Of a DNA stretch of 54,290 nucleotides, positions 614-51,573 are shown in pieces (the first letter of the stretch is position 1; each line of letters opens with the position of its first letter). The notes beneath the pieces are model-generated. The model was not told where the DNA came from and did not search any database. It worked only from the letters and a program-made list of their open reading frames with translations. Source of the DNA: Thermococcus celericrescens (GTDB taxonomy: Archaea > Methanobacteriota_B > Thermococci > Thermococcales > Thermococcaceae); contig NZ_LLYW01000005.1 of the NCBI RefSeq assembly GCF_001484195.1, forward strand, positions 1 through 54,290, in the 5' to 3' direction. Position numbers and translations under genes: made by a program.

Positions 614-1551
614 TGAAATACCAGAGGGACATCCGACCGGAAGATGTTACCATATTGATACCAACAAAGAACGAGGAAGAGGGCATAGGCTGGGTGATAG
701 AGGAGTTCCAGAAACTAGGCTACAACAACATCCTGGTCATCGATGGTCACAGCACGGACAGGACGAGGGAAATTGCAGAGGAAAAAGGGGCCAGTGTTGT
801 CCTCCAGACGGGAAGGGGAAAGGGCCAGGCGGTCGCTGAAGCGTTCAAGATGGTGGACAGTGAAGTCATCGTGATGATAGACGGCGACGGAACCTACGAC
901 CCCAAGGATGTGGAAAAGCTCCTCGAACCTATACGGCGGGGCATCGCCGAGCACGTCATCGGGAACAGGCTGGTGAATTTTGAAAAGGGAGCTTTCACGA
1001 GGCTCAACCTGATCGGCAACAAAATATTCAACGCACTCTTCAGGTTTTTCTACGGCGTCCCTGTTTATGACCTGCTCACCGGATACAGGGCCGTTACTAA
1101 AGACCTCTACAAGAGCGTGGAGCTTGAGAAGCACGGCTTTGAGGTAGAGACCGAGCTGACGGTCGAGACGATAGCGAAGGGCTTTAGAATAGCGGAAGTC
1201 CCGATAAGCTACCGCAGGAGAAGGGGGGACGCGAATCTTCACCCAATAAAGGACGGATGGAGGATAGGGAAGGCGATAGTGGGGATGCTGGTTAGGTACA
1301 ACCCCGGGAGGTACCTCTACTTCCTCGGCTTCCTCTCCCTGCTGGTGGGGCTCGTTATGGGGACGTACATCGTCGCGGAGTGGAACAGGGGCGTGACCCA
1401 CTACCTGATGGCGCCCCTCACGTCGATGTTCGTGATTACAGGGGTCAGCATGCTGATATTCGGCTTTGTCATGAGCTACATGTTCAAGAGCATGTCCGAG
1501 CTGAAGAGGATGATAAGGGAAAACAAAGAGGTTAACGGGGGATTAAAATGA
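613..1551 (+). CDS. aglJ: AglJ-like GT2 glycosyltransferase (dolichol-phosphate sugar synthase type)
   Basis: This 312-residue GT2 enzyme probably transfers the first sugar from a nucleotide donor to dolichol phosphate on the cytoplasmic face of the membrane, opening N-glycan assembly; that role is known for the family in haloarchaea. Visible motifs are PTKNEEEGIGWV (nucleotide binding), VIDGHSTD, and the metal-binding MIDGDGTY near residue 95. Two predicted membrane helices end the protein, at about residues 233-255 and 270-290. It starts with GTG at 613 behind GGAGGG. The stop overlaps the wecC ATG. AglB, the transferase that would use the finished lipid-linked glycan, is at 33223-35604. 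Confidence 0.72.
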   Translation: MKYQRDIRPEDVTILIPTKNEEEGIGWVIEEFQKLGYNNILVIDGHSTDRTREIAEEKGASVVLQTGRGKGQAVAEAFKMVDSEVIVMIDGDGTYDPKDVEKLLEPIRRGIAEHVIGNRLVNFEKGAFTRLNLIGNKIFNALFRFFYGVPVYDLLTGYRAVTKDLYKSVELEKHGFEVETELTVETIAKGFRIAEVPISYRRRRGDANLHPIKDGWRIGKAIVGMLVRYNPGRYLYFLGFLSLLVGLVMGTYIVAEWNRGVTHYLMAPLTSMFVITGVSMLIFGFVMSYMFKSMSELKRMIRENKEVNGGLK

Positions 1552-33222: not shown

Positions 33223-35604
33223 TTAATCCGTATCACTTGCACCAAATAGTACATCGTCTATCCTGAAAACCCCCCTATCCAGCACCGTCTTCTTCCGGAC
33301 GTAGACGTACCTCACGACGGCGCTCCCGTTGATGTCCGTGGGAAGAACAAACGCATCCTTCCCCCCGACGCCGTACCACTTCTTGAAGACGAGCGTGCCG
33401 TTATCGAGGTAGCCGTAGATGCCGAGGCCGGTTCCGGTGGCGTTGGTGAACCTGAGAACGACGGAGCCATTCTCCGCGGCAACGGCGACGTTCGGGTGCT
33501 CGAATCTGAAGATCTTCACGTAGCCGCCGTCGGAGTAAACCTGGGTGTAATTCCCGGAATAGTCATCGGTAAACATCAGCCGCGCCAGGGGGGTGTCAAA
33601 GGCCCTGCCGTTCATCAGCACGGCGTAGCCGTAGTTCAGGTTAATGTAAACGTAGGCATCGGCCGTTGGGGCTCCCGAGACGTTCACCTCCCTAACGACG
33701 TTCCCCCGCTCAACGAACGCCCTCTTGGGTATCACGACGCCCTTCCCGGCACGAACCTTGACGTCCCACTCCATATCTCCTGGGGCCGCCATGACCGAGT
33801 AGGGACCTCTGGAGAACACCATGAGGTTGCCGTAGGAACCCGCCCAGGGGAGAACCATCAGGACGTAGTCTCCGGAGGAGGCACCCGCGGTATCGACGAC
33901 CGCCCCGAACTTCGTCAGGGTGTCGTAGGAGACGATGACGTAGTCCACTCCAGGCTTCATCAGGTCCTTCTCCCCCTTGAGGCCAAGGTAGTACTGGGCC
34001 ACCCATTTACTGGGGCCACCCTGCGCAACGGGGGGTCTCATTGAATAGTAGGTCACCCAGTGGCCCTGATCCCACCAGGTCATGACGACGTCGTTGGGGT
34101 TGGAGATTTTGCCTAGATAAGTCAGCGCGGATTCCCATTCCTCCGTCATGAAGGGGTGGACGCTCAGCGTTGTACTGGTTCCCTGGTATGCGGATATTAG
34201 GGGGACGCCAATCAGAAGGAGGGAGAGAGCGGCGGAGAGCCATCTCCGTTTATCCTCAGAGAGACCCTCAATCAAAGCACCCATCGTATCATAGAGGGCC
34301 ACCAGCCCGATGCCGGCCATGGCGGCCACCGCGAGGGAGGATATGAAGAGGAACCTGGTCCAGACGACGGCCATCGGTATCATGACGAGCGCGGTGCCGA
34401 GGAGGAGGAAATCCCCCACCCTGGGCCGTTTGAGGAAGCGGAAGAGGAAGAGGGGCACCATCAGTCCGGAGATGCCGTAAGCCTCCCACCAGTCCCCAAA
34501 GGTCGTTCTCTGGGTCTCGGATATCGGGCTGGTGGGGAACAGACGGAGGAGGGCATCGTTTAGGATCCCGTAGTATCTGAAAGCAAGCCAGACGGAGGCG
34601 ACGGCTCCAAGCAGAACAACCGCACCCCTGACCCGTCTGTCCCTAACCAGCCTGGAGAGCACCAGGAGGACAAGAACCGCCGCAGCTGTCAGGGGAATGA
34701 TGTATTTAAGATACAGCAGAAGGAAGAGGTCCCCGATAAATCCAAACTGAATCCCGAGCTCCTCCGCCAGCTTTCTGCCGAGCCAGTGGGTGGCGCCCAC
34801 CATACCGTACCCAAGGTGGGAGCCTATTGAGTTTGCCAGAAGGGCGCCGGCGGCCAGGGATGCTATGAGAACTAGCGCGTCTTTCAGGTACCTGTCCCTC
34901 CCGAGAAGGAAGCCACCAACCGCGATGAGCAGGGCGTTGGAGGTAACGAGGGCGAATATTGGGTAGTAAGCCTGCCAGAAGGCCGCGGAAAGGCCGGCGA
35001 AGATCCCGGGAAAGAGGTAGAGGACCAGCCGGACGTTCCGCCACTTGGGCCCTCTGAGGGAAAGGGGAACGGCGGTTCCAAGGAGAGCCACGCTATAGAG
35101 GAAGAGCATGTAGTTGTCGCCGCGGTAGTAGCCGGCCATCGAGCGGAAGACGTGGCCGAAACTCACGGCCAAGATAAAGGCCGAGAGAAAGGCCTCCCTT
35201 TTACCGTGGAGCCTCAGCACGGTGAGGTAAGTGAAAACCACCGTGAGAACCCCAAAGATAACGGGCGTTATCCTGAAGGCGTTGTAGAGCGAAACGCCGA
35301 AGAGGGAGAGGAATTTATAAAAGTAGGCGGGCGTCATCCAGAGGCCTAAGGGATGGAACCCGGAAATCTGGTACCCCCACGGCCCTCCAGCGTAGGTGAT
35401 GAAGTTCACCCACTCCCCCCTCTCCAGGGAGTACCTGATGTAGGCGAGGTGGAAGTATGGGTCGTAGCCGAGGAGATACTCAAAGCGCATGGGGAGGAGC
35501 CTGACAACGAGGGTGATAACGGCTATGATGGTGGCCGCGAACTTCGGCTCGATGAGCCTCCTGTAAAAAACGGATGCCGTTTCAGACCTCCACAACCGTC
35601 CCAT
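33223..35604 (-). CDS. aglB: Oligosaccharyltransferase AglB/STT3
   Basis: This integral membrane enzyme moves a glycan from dolichol phosphate to Asn in N-x-S/T sites on the outer face of the membrane. About 12-13 helices fill the first 480 residues; LLGYDPYFHLAYIR near residue 50 holds the acidic DxD-type metal loop, and WWDQGHW near residue 508 is the WWDxGxx acceptor motif. The C-terminal 280 residues form the outer globular domain. GAGGGGAGCT decides ATG 35604, which gives 793 residues; a longer frame to 35703 runs into a mobile-element scar. The upstream glycan genes at 0.6-13 kb probably supply its donor. Confidence 0.93.
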   Translation of the reverse strand: MGRLWRSETASVFYRRLIEPKFAATIIAVITLVVRLLPMRFEYLLGYDPYFHLAYIRYSLERGEWVNFITYAGGPWGYQISGFHPLGLWMTPAYFYKFLSLFGVSLYNAFRITPVIFGVLTVVFTYLTVLRLHGKREAFLSAFILAVSFGHVFRSMAGYYRGDNYMLFLYSVALLGTAVPLSLRGPKWRNVRLVLYLFPGIFAGLSAAFWQAYYPIFALVTSNALLIAVGGFLLGRDRYLKDALVLIASLAAGALLANSIGSHLGYGMVGATHWLGRKLAEELGIQFGFIGDLFLLLYLKYIIPLTAAAVLVLLVLSRLVRDRRVRGAVVLLGAVASVWLAFRYYGILNDALLRLFPTSPISETQRTTFGDWWEAYGISGLMVPLFLFRFLKRPRVGDFLLLGTALVMIPMAVVWTRFLFISSLAVAAMAGIGLVALYDTMGALIEGLSEDKRRWLSAALSLLLIGVPLISAYQGTSTTLSVHPFMTEEWESALTYLGKISNPNDVVMTWWDQGHWVTYYSMRPPVAQGGPSKWVAQYYLGLKGEKDLMKPGVDYVIVSYDTLTKFGAVVDTAGASSGDYVLMVLPWAGSYGNLMVFSRGPYSVMAAPGDMEWDVKVRAGKGVVIPKRAFVERGNVVREVNVSGAPTADAYVYINLNYGYAVLMNGRAFDTPLARLMFTDDYSGNYTQVYSDGGYVKIFRFEHPNVAVAAENGSVVLRFTNATGTGLGIYGYLDNGTLVFKKWYGVGGKDAFVLPTDINGSAVVRYVYVRKKTVLDRGVFRIDDVLFGASDTD

Positions 35605-35659
35605 TAAAGCTCCCCTCTCACACCGATTTATCCCCAGTCCATTACCTTTTTTCTTCTGA

Positions 35660-36038
35660 AAGCCTCGCCCTTCAGGGCGGGGATGCGGTAATCGGTAATC
35701 CATTCTTTAAGCAGTCGAAACCCTTTTAAACTTTGGGGTGTAGTAAGGCCTCGGAGAGGCCACTCAAAGAGGGTTTCAGCGTGTCCTCCCGTCCCAGGGA
35801 GGAAGACGCTGTTAAGCGTCCTTTCAAAAACCGCTTTCGAGCGGTTAAGAACTCTGTGGGGTGGCCTTAGGTGATAACCCCGATCTGGTTTTGCCGGCAG
35901 GGTAACGGGCGCGAGACCGTGCCCTCGGGCCGAGCCAAAACCGGTGACAGGAGTAGGTGAATGAGTGCCCGAAAACCTTCCCGCCATTTGGCGAGGGGTT
36001 AAGCCGAACCCTCGCCCCTCACGGCAGGAAGGAGGTCA
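35660..36038 (+). mobile_element. TnpB-less IS605-type mini-element with own promoter (candidate stand-alone guide RNA)
   Basis: The left end has the hairpin GCCTCGCCCTTCAGGGCGGGG; the right end reads GCGAGGGGTTAAGCCGAACC and ends in AAGGAGGTCA. The same right-end string occurs in the element at 50115-51610. Inside, TCGAAACCCTTTTAAAC at 35715-35731 is a strong BRE/TATA, placing a start near 35752. The predicted transcript has several hairpins (GACGCTGTTAAGCGTC; AACCGCTTTCGAGCGGTT) and ends at the right end, as TnpB guide RNAs do. The bases after 36038 would be the guide. No protein is encoded; it may be a decayed element or a trans-acting guide locus. Confidence 0.55.
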
Positions 36039-36170
36039 GCATCGGCAGGTAATAAAAGTGTTGCGCAACCACCGGATGGCCCGCACAGTTGAGCGCGGGA
36101 AATGGCCCACCGGAGGTTAGAATTATTTCGAGTTATTTCAAAAAAATTTTGCATTAAATAAAAGCAAAGG

Positions 36171-36178
36171 TTTATATA
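36171..36178 (+). promoter_or_regulatory. TATA box of the 160-nt RNA gene
   Basis: TTTATATA, preceded by a purine-rich BRE (GCAAAGG), is centred 26 bases before 36201, where the terminal helix of the RNA begins. Confidence 0.7.
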
Positions 36179-36200
36179 GTTAAAGCACCTAATACTATAT

Positions 36201-36360
36201 GAGGAGTGCTGTGCAGGGGAGACTGAAGCGAAAGCTTCACTCCGAGCAGGCCCAACCCAAACGGTGGTTCCATGATCTGAGATGGTCACGGGATCACTAA
36301 CTAGGGAAAGGTCCGTCAAGAGTGGAACTTCACTCCTGCCTCGTCTGTACGGCGCTCCTC
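36201..36360 (+). ncRNA. Structured 160-nt RNA of unknown family
   Basis: The first nine bases GAGGAGTGC pair fully (one G-U) with the last nine, GCGCTCCTC at 36352-36360. Within lies GAAGC-GAAA-GCTTC at 36225-36238 inside GGAG/CTCC, and GAGTG-GAACTT-CACTC near 36320. Together with the TATA box exactly 26 bases upstream this defines an independent RNA gene. It is not SRP RNA, RNase P RNA, tRNA or rRNA by the motifs I know. It may belong to one of the Hgc families first described in Pyrococcus, which I cannot check. No long open frame crosses it. Confidence 0.65.
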
Positions 36361-36398
36361 ACTCCTTCTAACGTCCATTAAAAGACAGTCCGATAACA

Positions 36399-36508
36399 TC
36401 ACGTTTGGAAGAGCCTCCTGATCACCGGGTCCGGAATGAGGTACTCCCTTCCCGCATGCTCCAGAAAACCGTAGTTAACGAGCTTCTTGAGAAGCAGGTT
36501 AAGGTTCT
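36399..36508 (-). pseudogene. C-terminal relic of an archaeal ATPase at a TnpB element
   Basis: The minus strand encodes KNLNLLLKKLVNYGFLEHAGR and then EYLIPDPVIRRLFQT with a stop. This parallels the end of the intact ATPase at 26436-27494 (IKYGYIEKHDDEYYIIDPVIERAL). The upstream part is cut at 36509 by the right end of the TnpB element, so the element probably landed in the gene or near its end. Confidence 0.7.
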
Positions 36509-36510
36509 TA

Positions 36511-36690
36511 TGACCTCCTCCCCGTCCTGAAGGGCGAGGGTTCCAACGAGTTAACCCCTCGCTAAGGGCGGGGAGGTTTGAGGGGTAATCCTCACCACCC
36601 CTTTTGAAGGGGGTTCGGAGAACCCCTCCGGGAGGGTCTTCCCCCAATTACCCCTACCCGCCGTCAAACCCGGCAGGCTCGGGGTTATCT
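36511..36690 (-). ncRNA. Candidate TnpB guide (omega/reRNA) scaffold
   Basis: In TnpB systems the guide RNA overlaps the 3' end of tnpB and ends at the element's right end. Here the last 45 codons of tnpB and the right end are rich in stems (GGGGTTCTCCGAACCCCC; CGCCCTTAGCGAGGGG) and are conserved in the decayed copy at 50385-51573. The guide would be read from 36510 downwards, into the ATPase relic. The 5' limit is only an estimate. Confidence 0.5.
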
Positions 36691-37861
36691 TTTCCACAAC
36701 CTTCTTCAAAATATTAAACGCTCCAACAAGGTCGGCGTTCATAACAACACCCTTCCCACGGCACTTAAATAAACCCCTAACAAAGCGGGCATTAGAATGG
36801 CGTTGGCCGCAGAGAGGGCAAAGCTGGGAAGTGAAAGCCTCATCAACAACCACAACCAGAATACCATATTCTTCCGAGACTTCCTTGAGACGTTTGATAA
36901 CGTAATTGAACCGCCAAACGTGGGAGAGGAGAAAATTCTGCTTTCTGCCTTTCTCAGAGTTCCGGGCTATGCCTTTAGGATAACCAACCACAATCCTCGA
37001 AACTCCGAGGTGATAAAGCCTCTCGACAGTTTGTCTCACGGCAGTGTTGATGTAATGCTTGGCTTGGAGCTTGGCCTTCTCGTGCATTCTTTTGAGTTTT
37101 CTACTCGTTTTTGCTCCAGACTTGTTGAGTTTTGACTGGTAATCTGAAATCCTCTCCTGCCAGTAAAAGGCGATGCTCTTCAAGGGCCTTCCATTGACCA
37201 AAAAACTCTCACCGTTCTCAACGTAAACGGCCATCAGGTTGTTTACTCCCAAGTCAATACCCGCCGAGAGGTCTCCTAAGGGTTGCCTTGGAACTCTCAC
37301 CCATTCGCCGTTGATTAGCTTCTCTCCAACGGTGAAGCTAACGTGAGCATACCATTTCCGCTTTACCTCGTCGTAAGTTATCTCTAACCGCCCCTGCTTG
37401 CCCTTAAGGTAAATTCTTCCCCTGAATTGAATCCTCAGTCTTCCGAACTTCCCGAGGCGCCTCAACTCAATAACGTTCCCGGTAATCCTGTATTGGTCGT
37501 TTCTGATGGGGATTATGAAAATTTTCTTACCGTTTTCTTCTCTAACAAAGCCGGGAGGTTTTGGTCTGAACCACTCCGGCAATTCTCCGTTTTTCTTCTT
37601 GTTGAGTTGGAAGAAGCTCCTCCAGCTTTCAGCGTTCTTCCTCGCTAACTGCTGGACTGTTGAGCTGCCAATCCAGTTTTTGAACTCGTGGTAAACTTCT
37701 TTTTCTGTTCCATTAAAATCAATCCTGCCGAATTCTTTGAATTGTTTTAAACGCTGGTAGTTCAGCTTGTTCCAGATTACTGCCGAAGCGTGAGCTAACT
37801 CGAAAAGGATTTTCTCCTGCTCTTTTGAGGGCTGGAGTTTGATGGTTACTGTCCTCTTCAT
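36551..37861 (-). CDS. tnpB: RNA-guided endonuclease TnpB
   Basis: A 436-residue TnpB. The N-terminal KRTVTIKLQPSKEQEKIL starts the recognition domain. RuvC motifs follow: GIDLGVNNLMAVY with the first Asp near residue 205, VVVDEAFTSQLCPLCG with the catalytic Glu, and MNADLVGAFNI with the last Asp near residue 380. The zinc region has CPLCG and LFKC but lacks a fourth Cys, a form I believe is common in Thermococcales. The last 45 residues are low-complexity, translated from the guide-RNA region. It is presumably an active RNA-guided nuclease; the related copy at 50385 is decayed. Confidence 0.9.
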   Translation of the reverse strand: MKRTVTIKLQPSKEQEKILFELAHASAVIWNKLNYQRLKQFKEFGRIDFNGTEKEVYHEFKNWIGSSTVQQLARKNAESWRSFFQLNKKKNGELPEWFRPKPPGFVREENGKKIFIIPIRNDQYRITGNVIELRRLGKFGRLRIQFRGRIYLKGKQGRLEITYDEVKRKWYAHVSFTVGEKLINGEWVRVPRQPLGDLSAGIDLGVNNLMAVYVENGESFLVNGRPLKSIAFYWQERISDYQSKLNKSGAKTSRKLKRMHEKAKLQAKHYINTAVRQTVERLYHLGVSRIVVGYPKGIARNSEKGRKQNFLLSHVWRFNYVIKRLKEVSEEYGILVVVVDEAFTSQLCPLCGQRHSNARFVRGLFKCRGKGVVMNADLVGAFNILKKVVEKITPSLPGLTAGRGNWGKTLPEGFSEPPSKGVVRITPQTSPPLARG

Positions 37862-48671: not shown

Positions 48672-49667
48672 ATGAAAGTCCTCATAATGGCCGGCGGCTA
48701 CGCGACGAGGCTGTGGCCCATAACCAAGGACAACCCCAAGGCTCTGCTGCCCGTTGGCAACAGGGTGATCCTCGACTACATACTGGAGAAGGTGGGGGAG
48801 CTTGGACTTGAGACCTACATCTCCACGAACCGCTTCTTCGAGGCTCACTTCCGCCCCTACGCAGAGGAGCGGGGGGTTGAGCTCATCGTCGAGGATACCC
48901 TCCACGAGGAGGAGAAGCTCGGCACGATAGGGGCCATGAAGAAGGCCGTCGATGAGCTGGGCCTCGACGACTACCTCGTCATCGCCGGCGACAACCTCTT
49001 CTCCTTCTCCCTGACGGACTTTCTCAGGGCCTATGACGGCAGGACGCTGATAGCGGTCTACGACGTCGGCGACCTCGAACTGGCGAAGCGCTACGGCGTT
49101 GTGGTTCTTGAGGGGGACAGGGTGATCTCATTCGAGGAGAAGCCGGCCCAGCCGCGCTCGACCCTAATAAGCACCGGCGTCTACGTCTTTCCAAAAGTCG
49201 TTATGGAGCGCATCGATGAGTACCTCTCCAACGGCAACCGCGATTCCCCCGGCTACTTCCTCCAGTGGCTCCTCTCCAAAGGCGAGCCGATAAAGGCCTA
49301 CCGCTTCTCCGAGTACTGGTATGATATAGGCTCGGCCGACAGCTACCTGGAGGCCCTCAAGACGCTCCTCCGGGAGAGCCACGTCGAGGAGATTCAGATA
49401 AGCCCCTACGCCAAGATAATCCCGCCGGTCGTCATAAAGAGGGGTGCGAAAATCCTGGGGCGCTCCATAATCGGCCCCTACGCCTACATCGGCGAGAGTT
49501 GCACCATAGAGAACTCGGACATAAGCGACTCGATAGTCTTCAGGAACACGGTCATCAGGAACTCCACGATATGGCGCTCCATCATAGACGAGAAGTGCGA
49601 GATAAGAAACCTCGAGCTCAGGAAGAGCCTCGTCGGCGGGCACGCAAAGATACAGAGGGGTGAGTGA
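48672..49667 (+). CDS. Sugar-1-phosphate nucleotidyltransferase with beta-helix C-terminus
   Basis: LIMAGGYATRLWPITKDNPKALLPV is the nucleotidyltransferase signature; VIAGDNLFSF and STGVYVFPK follow. The C-terminal 90 residues are a left-handed beta-helix (IIGPYAYIGESCTIENSDIS). The 331-residue layout fits archaeal RmlA/GlmU-like enzymes making UDP- or dTDP-sugars. The substrate is open: Glc-1-P or GlcNAc-1-P are likely, given the epimerase next door. Confidence 0.87.
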   Translation: MKVLIMAGGYATRLWPITKDNPKALLPVGNRVILDYILEKVGELGLETYISTNRFFEAHFRPYAEERGVELIVEDTLHEEEKLGTIGAMKKAVDELGLDDYLVIAGDNLFSFSLTDFLRAYDGRTLIAVYDVGDLELAKRYGVVVLEGDRVISFEEKPAQPRSTLISTGVYVFPKVVMERIDEYLSNGNRDSPGYFLQWLLSKGEPIKAYRFSEYWYDIGSADSYLEALKTLLRESHVEEIQISPYAKIIPPVVIKRGAKILGRSIIGPYAYIGESCTIENSDISDSIVFRNTVIRNSTIWRSIIDEKCEIRNLELRKSLVGGHAKIQRGE

Positions 49668-50388: not shown

Positions 50389-51573
50389 AGCGCTCAGTAA
50401 CAGTAAAACTCCAGCCGAGCAAGGAGCAGGAAAACCCTCTTCGAGTTAGCTCACGCTTCGGCAGTAATCTGGAACAAGCTGAACTACCAGCGTTTAAAAC
50501 AATTCAAAGAATTCGGCAGGATTGATTTTAACGGGACGGAAAAGGAAGCCTATCACGAGTTCAAAAACTGGATTGTGGTTCAACGGTTCAACAATTAGCC
50601 AGAAAGAACGCCGAAAGCTGGAGGAGCTTCTTCCAACTCAACAAGAAGAAAAACGGAGAATTGCCGGAGTGGTTCAAGCCCAAACCTCCCGGCTTTGTTA
50701 GAGAAGAAAACGGTAAGAAAGTCTTCATAATCCTCATCAGAAACGACCAGTACAGGATTGACGGGAACGTCGTCGAGTTGAGGCGCCTTGGAAAATTTGG
50801 AAGATTGAGGATTCAATTCAAGGGGAAAATTTACCTCAGGGGCAAGCAGGGAAGGTTAGAGATAACTTACGACGAGGTAAAGCGAAAATGGTACGCTCAC
50901 ACCAACATCACGGTGGAAGAAAAACTAATCAACGACGAGTGGGTGAGAGTTCCAAAACAACCCTTGGGCGACCTTTCAGCGGGAATTGACTTGGGAGTGA
51001 ACAATTTAATGGCGGTCTACGTTGAGAACGGCGAAAGCTTCCTCGTGAATGGAAGGCCCTTGAAGAGCATCGCCTTTTACTGGCAGGAGAGGATTTCAGA
51101 ATACCAGTCAAAACTCAACAAGTCTGGAGCAAAAACGAGTAGGAACCTCAAAAGAATGCACGAGAAGGCTAAACTACAAGCCAAGCATTACATCAACACT
51201 GCGGTAAGGCAGACTGTCGAGAGGCTTTATCAGCTGGGAGTTAACAGAATCGTCGTTGGTTACCCCAAAGGAATAGCCAGAAACTCTGATAATGGTAAAA
51301 AGCAGAATTTCCTTCTCTCCCACGTGTGGAGGTTTAATACTGTCATTAAACGCTTGAAGGAAGTCTCGGAAGAATGTTGTTATGAACGCCGACCTTGTTG
51401 GAGCGTTTAATATTTTAAAGAAGGTTGTGGAAAAGATAACCCCTAGCCTTCCAGCCTTGGCTGGAGGTAGGGGTAATTGGGGGAAGACCCTCCCGGAGGG
51501 GTTCTCCGAACCCCCTTCAAAAGGGGTGATGAGGATTACCCCTCGAACCTATCCGCCCTTAGCGAGGGGTTAA
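50385..51573 (+). pseudogene. tnpB: Decayed tnpB
   Basis: It follows the intact tnpB closely but is broken. After KEQE a base change shifts the frame (near 50432). One base is missing at the NWIGSS position (near 50575). The codons for the second RuvC Glu, CPLCG and LFKC are deleted, so SEE joins directly to the codons for MNADLVGAFNI out of frame (near 51375). The first RuvC motif GIDLGVNNLM and the guide-RNA region at the 3' end remain. The nuclease cannot be active, yet the scaffold RNA could still be made. Confidence 0.88.

Follow-up and report, generated by a model that had tools for sequence, protein, structure and literature searches.

The question raised by this locus is whether the DNA downstream of a TATA box near position 36171 of the window (the whole 54,290-nt stretch of Thermococcus celericrescens DNA that was analysed) encodes a stand-alone structured RNA, and what such an RNA might do among its neighbours. 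It had been proposed in a preliminary description that 36171-36360 holds an RNA gene with a TATA box centred 26 bases 5' of a nine-pair terminal helix, a GAAA-tetraloop hairpin and another stem. The site is correct and the limits shift slightly, the RNA lying at about 36199-36371 and the promoter element at 36119-36179. On the plus strand, the 162-nt sequence from 36200 to 36361 folds into a four-helix cloverleaf (P1 to P4) with −81.5 kcal/mol, compared with a mean of −52.4 kcal/mol for dinucleotide shuffles (z = −7.5; none of 200 shuffles was as good), whereas the minus strand of the locus reaches a z of only −4.7 against such shuffles. The promoter and the RNA are made up of the following parts.

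36119-36170, plus strand: upstream promoter element with an A-rich BRE and palindrome-like AATTATTTC and AAAAAATTTTG blocks, seen in the aligned loci
36171-36179, plus strand: TATA box TTTATATAG, invariant in the 22 loci used
36200-36361, plus strand: cloverleaf RNA core, from P1 to P1', indicated by the fold, the covariance-model match and covariation among homologues
36200-36221, plus strand: 5' strand of P1, 21 pairs with 36340-36361, the outer UGAGG/CCUCA nearly invariant
36224-36239, plus strand: P2 hairpin UGAAGC-GAAA-GCUUCA, conserved in sequence
36246-36316, plus strand: long P3 arm with internal loops, covarying in both group alignments (A3 and A4, below)
36317-36338, plus strand: P4 hairpin, whose loop has GAA..CUUCAC in common with P2
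36340-36361, plus strand: 3' strand of P1, partner of 36200-36221
36362-36371, plus strand: conserved short 3' tail, CTCCTTCTAA here and CTATTCT or TTGTTCTAT elsewhere, taken from the downstream sequences

The terminal helix is present, with 21 pairs instead of nine, and the tetraloop hairpin was found (strands 36224-36229 and 36234-36239). The distance from the centre of the TATA box to the helix start at 36200 (~25-26 nt) agrees with the proposed one, and the other stem really comprises two arms, P3 and P4. At 85 °C, the cloverleaf is the minimum-energy fold for most of the Thermococcus-type copies tested. The RNA is a single copy in its own genome (G000, contig C5), and the predicted transcript probably has its 5' end at 36197-36200 and the short tail at its 3' end.

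Among 94 Thermococcaceae genomes, 43 gave relatives with a loose blastn threshold. From 34 of these relatives we built a covariance model, which detected the RNA in 45 of the 94 genomes at E ≤ 0.1, with 40 of them better than 1e-9, and which matches the window with 156 bits over 36200-36371. The detected copies cover all six Thermococcaceae genera, and the few beyond the 40 are decayed or doubtful; the family measures ~160-190 nt, the window copy ~165 nt. The same model found no copy in any other genus among 115 genomes of the phylum (the 94 included), plasmid, phage and viral sources gave no matches, and a scan for the P2 motif over named genomes returned four Thermococcales MAGs only. As far as the searched sequences indicate, the family is known so far from Thermococcaceae only and is previously undescribed. 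Because fold, promoter and spacing repeat in ~40 genomes, their recurrence is far beyond chance, and we hold with high confidence that 36200-36361 of the plus strand belongs to a real structured RNA family. Its presence is patchy even in complete genomes. Some genomes have more than one copy: in G039 and G042, 22-28 kb separate two copies, and an adjacent second copy occurs in G025, G038 and G040, its promoter and 5' end being 80-89% identical to the query and the remainder diverged. Tandem second copies are seen at L040, L041 and L042, ~230-260 bp 5' of the first RNA copy.

Covariation across relatives had been named as a check of the proposed RNA, and compensatory changes turned out to be abundant. 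In a joint alignment, RNAalifold found double-sided changes in 16 of 34 pairs. We also aligned two sequence groups apart, one of 28 Thermococcus-type rows (A3) and one of 18 rows of other types (A4). In A3, 86.4% of cells are paired, 30 of 58 pairs show double-sided changes, and the covariation score is 0.306, against 0.228 for shuffled and at most 0.132 for slid alignments; the corresponding values for A4 are 93.4%, 26 of 61, and 0.339 against 0.247 and at most 0.155. The scores were reached by no shuffle in either group, and they are to be read with the caveat that the structures scored were themselves derived from the same sequences. Within A3, double-sided changes affect 12 of 22 pairs of P1 and, in P3 (helices 3 and 5; the A4 counterpart is helices 5 and 6), 7 of 7 basal and 9 of 13 upper pairs. 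P1 and P3 covary, whereas P2 and the loop of P4 are kept in sequence instead. The mutual likeness of P2 and P4 exceeds that in shuffles for 27 of the 43 related copies and is weak in the others; the shared motif takes the form AGCGAAA(G)CUUCAC in one subfamily, and the likeness is weak in one subfamily. A rod-like fold, in which P2 pairs with P4, accounts for about as many pairs as the cloverleaf in the Thermococcus-type alignment, whereas the consensus of the other subfamily and most of the 85 °C folds favour the cloverleaf. Since the rod is nearly as compatible in the Thermococcus-type copies, the RNA may switch there between two states, cloverleaf and rod.

The same comparisons bear on the idea that, instead of an RNA gene, the locus is a short protein gene or a feature of the DNA itself, such as a cruciform or a recombination site at the borders of the island. 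The locus does sit at variable, rearranged island junctions, and the window copy has a 33-codon frame from an ATG at 36198. However, one strand is rich in G-U pairs, the covariance model scores that same strand much higher (156 versus 67 bits), and the core promoter is held at a fixed spacing. A conserved reading frame was sought among the homologues and none was found: the start codon may be ATG, TTG or another triplet, the frame is displaced from one subfamily to the next, and most homologues contain stops. The short protein gene was rejected on these grounds, and the idea as a whole is highly improbable. The own promoter, the compensatory changes and the lack of a conserved frame support the stand-alone structured RNA of the preliminary description.

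The promoter of this RNA is conserved well beyond its core. From the first base of TTTATATAG to the start of the helix there are 29 nt in 21 of 22 Thermococcus-type loci and 28 nt in one. In an ungapped comparison of these 22 loci, the ~50 bp 5' of the TATA box carry 1.1-1.7 bits per position; beyond this element, conservation drops to 0.6 and then to 0.3 bits or less. The upstream element occurs once in its own genome. Because it is conserved and palindrome-like, its sequence suggests that a DNA-binding regulator binds it and makes the promoter a controlled one. The palindrome-like blocks GAAATTATTTC and CAAAAAATTTTG are conserved 5' of the TATA box in the window (36119-36170) and in the upstream regions of L040-L062.

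A search of the RNA with Rfam 15 (RNase P, SRP, Hgc, SscA, C/D, H/ACA and others) returned nothing at the gathering level, at E ≤ 5 or at E ≤ 10, which is consistent with the earlier statement that the RNA matches none of the recognisable standard archaeal RNAs; a divergent homologue gave chance matches below threshold only. Identity with a known RNA was ruled out by these empty searches. A box C/D or H/ACA guide RNA was rejected as well, there being no Rfam match and, judged by eye only, no conserved K-turn in the alignments. HgcC (RF00062) and sRk48/sRk52 of Pyrococcus are, like the window RNA, structured RNAs of Thermococcales with BRE/TATA promoters of their own. They have multiple genomic copies and are akin to OrfB/TnpB elements (PMC3124441), whereas the window RNA is single copy, has a different fold and gives no HgcC match; identity with sRk48/52 or with other ncRNAs of P. 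abyssi is unsupported by their descriptions (PMC3124441). SscA/sRk33, HgcE, HgcF and HgcG are also stand-alone structured RNAs of Thermococcales with unknown function. All are Rfam families, none matching at E ≤ 10, and the window family differs from them in its four-helix cloverleaf, its patchy presence and its linkage to a glycan island. No description of the family was found in the open-access literature. The unannotated intergenic ncRNAs in the T. onnurineus NA1 transcriptome (PMC5316973) may include this transcript, and the supplementary ncRNA table of that article might list it without analysis; the available portion of the article's text describes no such family, structure or distribution. 

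To understand what the RNA might do, we clustered the genes around its copies. The neighbours are surface-glycan and sulfate-activation genes, forming a surface-glycan/N-glycosylation island. According to Pfam, the clusters include an NDP-sugar nucleotidyltransferase (c1), an NDP-sugar epimerase (c0), a short STT3/AglB-type transferase (c3) and an ATP-sulfurylase (c5), with a Gfo/Idh oxidoreductase near the RNA in other genera; an APS kinase, a UDP-sugar dehydrogenase and a DegT-type aminotransferase near the RNA were named from their sequences only. Three neighbouring genes of the window matter in what follows.

33223-35703, minus strand: gene for a short STT3/AglB-type oligosaccharyltransferase, oriented divergently to the RNA, with weak Pfam matches just below the cut-off and orthologues family-wide
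36402-36527, minus strand: convergent remnant of an archaeal-ATPase gene (cluster c20), found by tblastn, with an ATPase_2 domain in an intact relative
48672-49667, plus strand: c1 NDP-sugar nucleotidyltransferase gene (PF00483), 12 kb from the RNA here and adjoining it in many genomes

Of the 94 genomes, 85 carry the c1 gene, rarely with more than one copy each. Wherever a single contig holds both RNA and c1, which is so in 36 genomes, the two lie at most 42 kb apart (at most 20 kb in 35; median 2 kb), and the distance between RNA and AglB is at most 43 kb in 27 of 27. In genomes of ~2 Mb, the linkage to c1 is far from chance, with shared descent of the locus contributing; the island linkage partly reflects this descent from one locus and is no proof of control. 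About half of the genomes lack the RNA or have it in decayed form, and it is dispensable for this reason. Decayed copies lie between c1 and aglB in G021, G062 and G060 (L128, L129 and L130); in G021, a deletion has fused the TATA region to P4. Together with the RNA-less genomes, these copies indicate that the RNA can be lost, the glycan island working without it.

According to the preliminary description, the RNA sits between two TnpB-type elements and might be linked to a mobile element or simply be a neighbour. On one side, 36551-37861 of the minus strand is indeed a TnpB gene, with OrfB_IS605 and Cas12f1-like TNB domains, and at its 3' end an HgcC-like sequence (36497-36560, minus strand; 28.9 bits, cut-off 50) is probably its omega-RNA region. 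On the other side, 35646-36040 has TnpB-type ends and no TnpB: it is a repeat of ~395 bp that lacks a clear gene, recurs in the genome as ~16 long copies of 71-83% identity, carries a left-end hairpin resembling those of HgcC and sot0042, and probably represents a TnpB-less IS200/IS605-type element. This repeat lies between the RNA promoter and the start of the STT3/AglB-type gene (whose true start probably lies near 35606), and its subtraction restores the usual ~200-bp spacing. Because both IS605-type elements interrupt an otherwise conserved arrangement, they look like later insertions. With a TnpB gene on one side and a TnpB-type repeat on the other, the window RNA could be the omega RNA of an IS200/IS605 element or be carried along by the flanking elements as a passenger. 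However, the RNA is single copy while the flanking elements are multicopy, HgcC matches the ends of the elements and not the RNA, and nearly all homologous loci have no TnpB beside the RNA. An omega RNA was rejected for the single copy, the missing element ends and these homologues, and an origin from TnpB elements is exceedingly improbable. The homologous loci speak against the mobile link and for the RNA being simply a neighbour of the elements.

Downstream of the RNA there is usually a convergent gene, the end of which is often no more than ~60 nt away; it is often a glycan or an archaeal-ATPase gene and differs between genomes. The TnpB gene of the window sits inside the c20 ATPase remnant, and the c20 ATPase abuts the RNA in other genomes. 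Genes or remnants of such ATPases (ATPase_2, DUF234), belonging to three subfamilies, abut the RNA 3' end in 9 of 45 loci, the window included, and in G021 and G062 the decayed RNA adjoins an ATPase gene that is itself broken. This raises the idea that the RNA and the adjacent ATPases are partners in a two-part module, toxin-antitoxin-like or defence-like, within the glycan island. However, a glycan gene and not an ATPase occupies that place in most loci, and archaeal ATPases of this kind are numerous in Thermococcaceae genomes, so that chance and island instability could explain the adjacency. We consider the partnership improbable.

We suggest, with a probability of roughly 0.55, that the best explanation for the locus is a regulated, protein-bound RNA that uses twin hairpins to tune glycan genes. 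The RNA gene would be transcribed alone, from a regulated promoter. P1 and P3 would serve as a covarying scaffold that carries the similar hairpins P2 and P4 (GAA(A)..CUUCAC), these would hold or sequester a putative RNA-binding protein, and capture of the protein would tune the expression of the neighbouring glycan genes. Unpaired runs at 37 °C measure only 4-8 nt, and for this reason long antisense pairing is disfavoured; action through a bound protein is preferred to long base pairing because the RNA is mostly double-stranded. Taken separately, action through a bound protein has an even chance of being right, and regulation of the glycan island is less likely than not. The absence or decay of the RNA in so many genomes, the weak P2/P4 likeness in one subfamily, the nearly equal rod-like fold and the shared descent behind the island linkage count against the explanation. 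The CsrA/RsmA system is bacterial, and in it CsrB/RsmZ sequester the protein. The likeness to CsrB/RsmZ would be one of working only: they combine repeated hairpins, a conserved sequence motif and a variable scaffold, a design that the window RNA may share, although it has only two hairpins, another motif and a putative partner.

The glycan genes might also be affected in cis: by its transcription or its structure, the RNA would curb the convergent glycan gene, in its read-through or its expression, and set that gene apart from aglB. The usual convergence with a gene ending within ~60 nt fits such a role, as does the direct abutment of c1 and aglB in the RNA-less genomes G015, G016 and G057. 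However, cis action needs neither a detailed conserved cloverleaf nor sequence-conserved hairpins, the convergent gene varies between genomes, and the c1-aglB order is not kept in all carriers; we regard it as unlikely, although it and the ATPase partnership are the chief competitors of the explanation preferred here.

The protein-bound RNA tuning glycan genes, if correct, would connect a non-coding RNA in a concrete way with the surface glycosylation of archaea, a process for which, to our knowledge, no RNA regulator is known. Although it has no Rfam relative, the family displays compensatory changes in each of two subfamilies. It may have escaped notice since the best-studied Pyrococcus species appear to be without the RNA. 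We claim newness for the RNA family and not for the mechanism. It is a speculative and rather unlikely extension that the RNA represents a new archaeal class, residing in a dedicated ribonucleoprotein that controls surface glycosylation or glycan-gene expression in the island, possibly to evade surface-recognising viruses.

Two observations on gene arrangement may be added. In L016 and L020, two tandem tRNA genes (about 1129-1324, minus strand) lie 180-370 bp 5' of the RNA copy. In the window, the TnpB gene at 36551-37861 (minus strand) and a partial TnpB at 50661-51410 (plus strand) stand in inverted orientation and bracket the ~12 kb between the RNA and c0/c1, a segment that recombination between the two inverted copies may have inverted.
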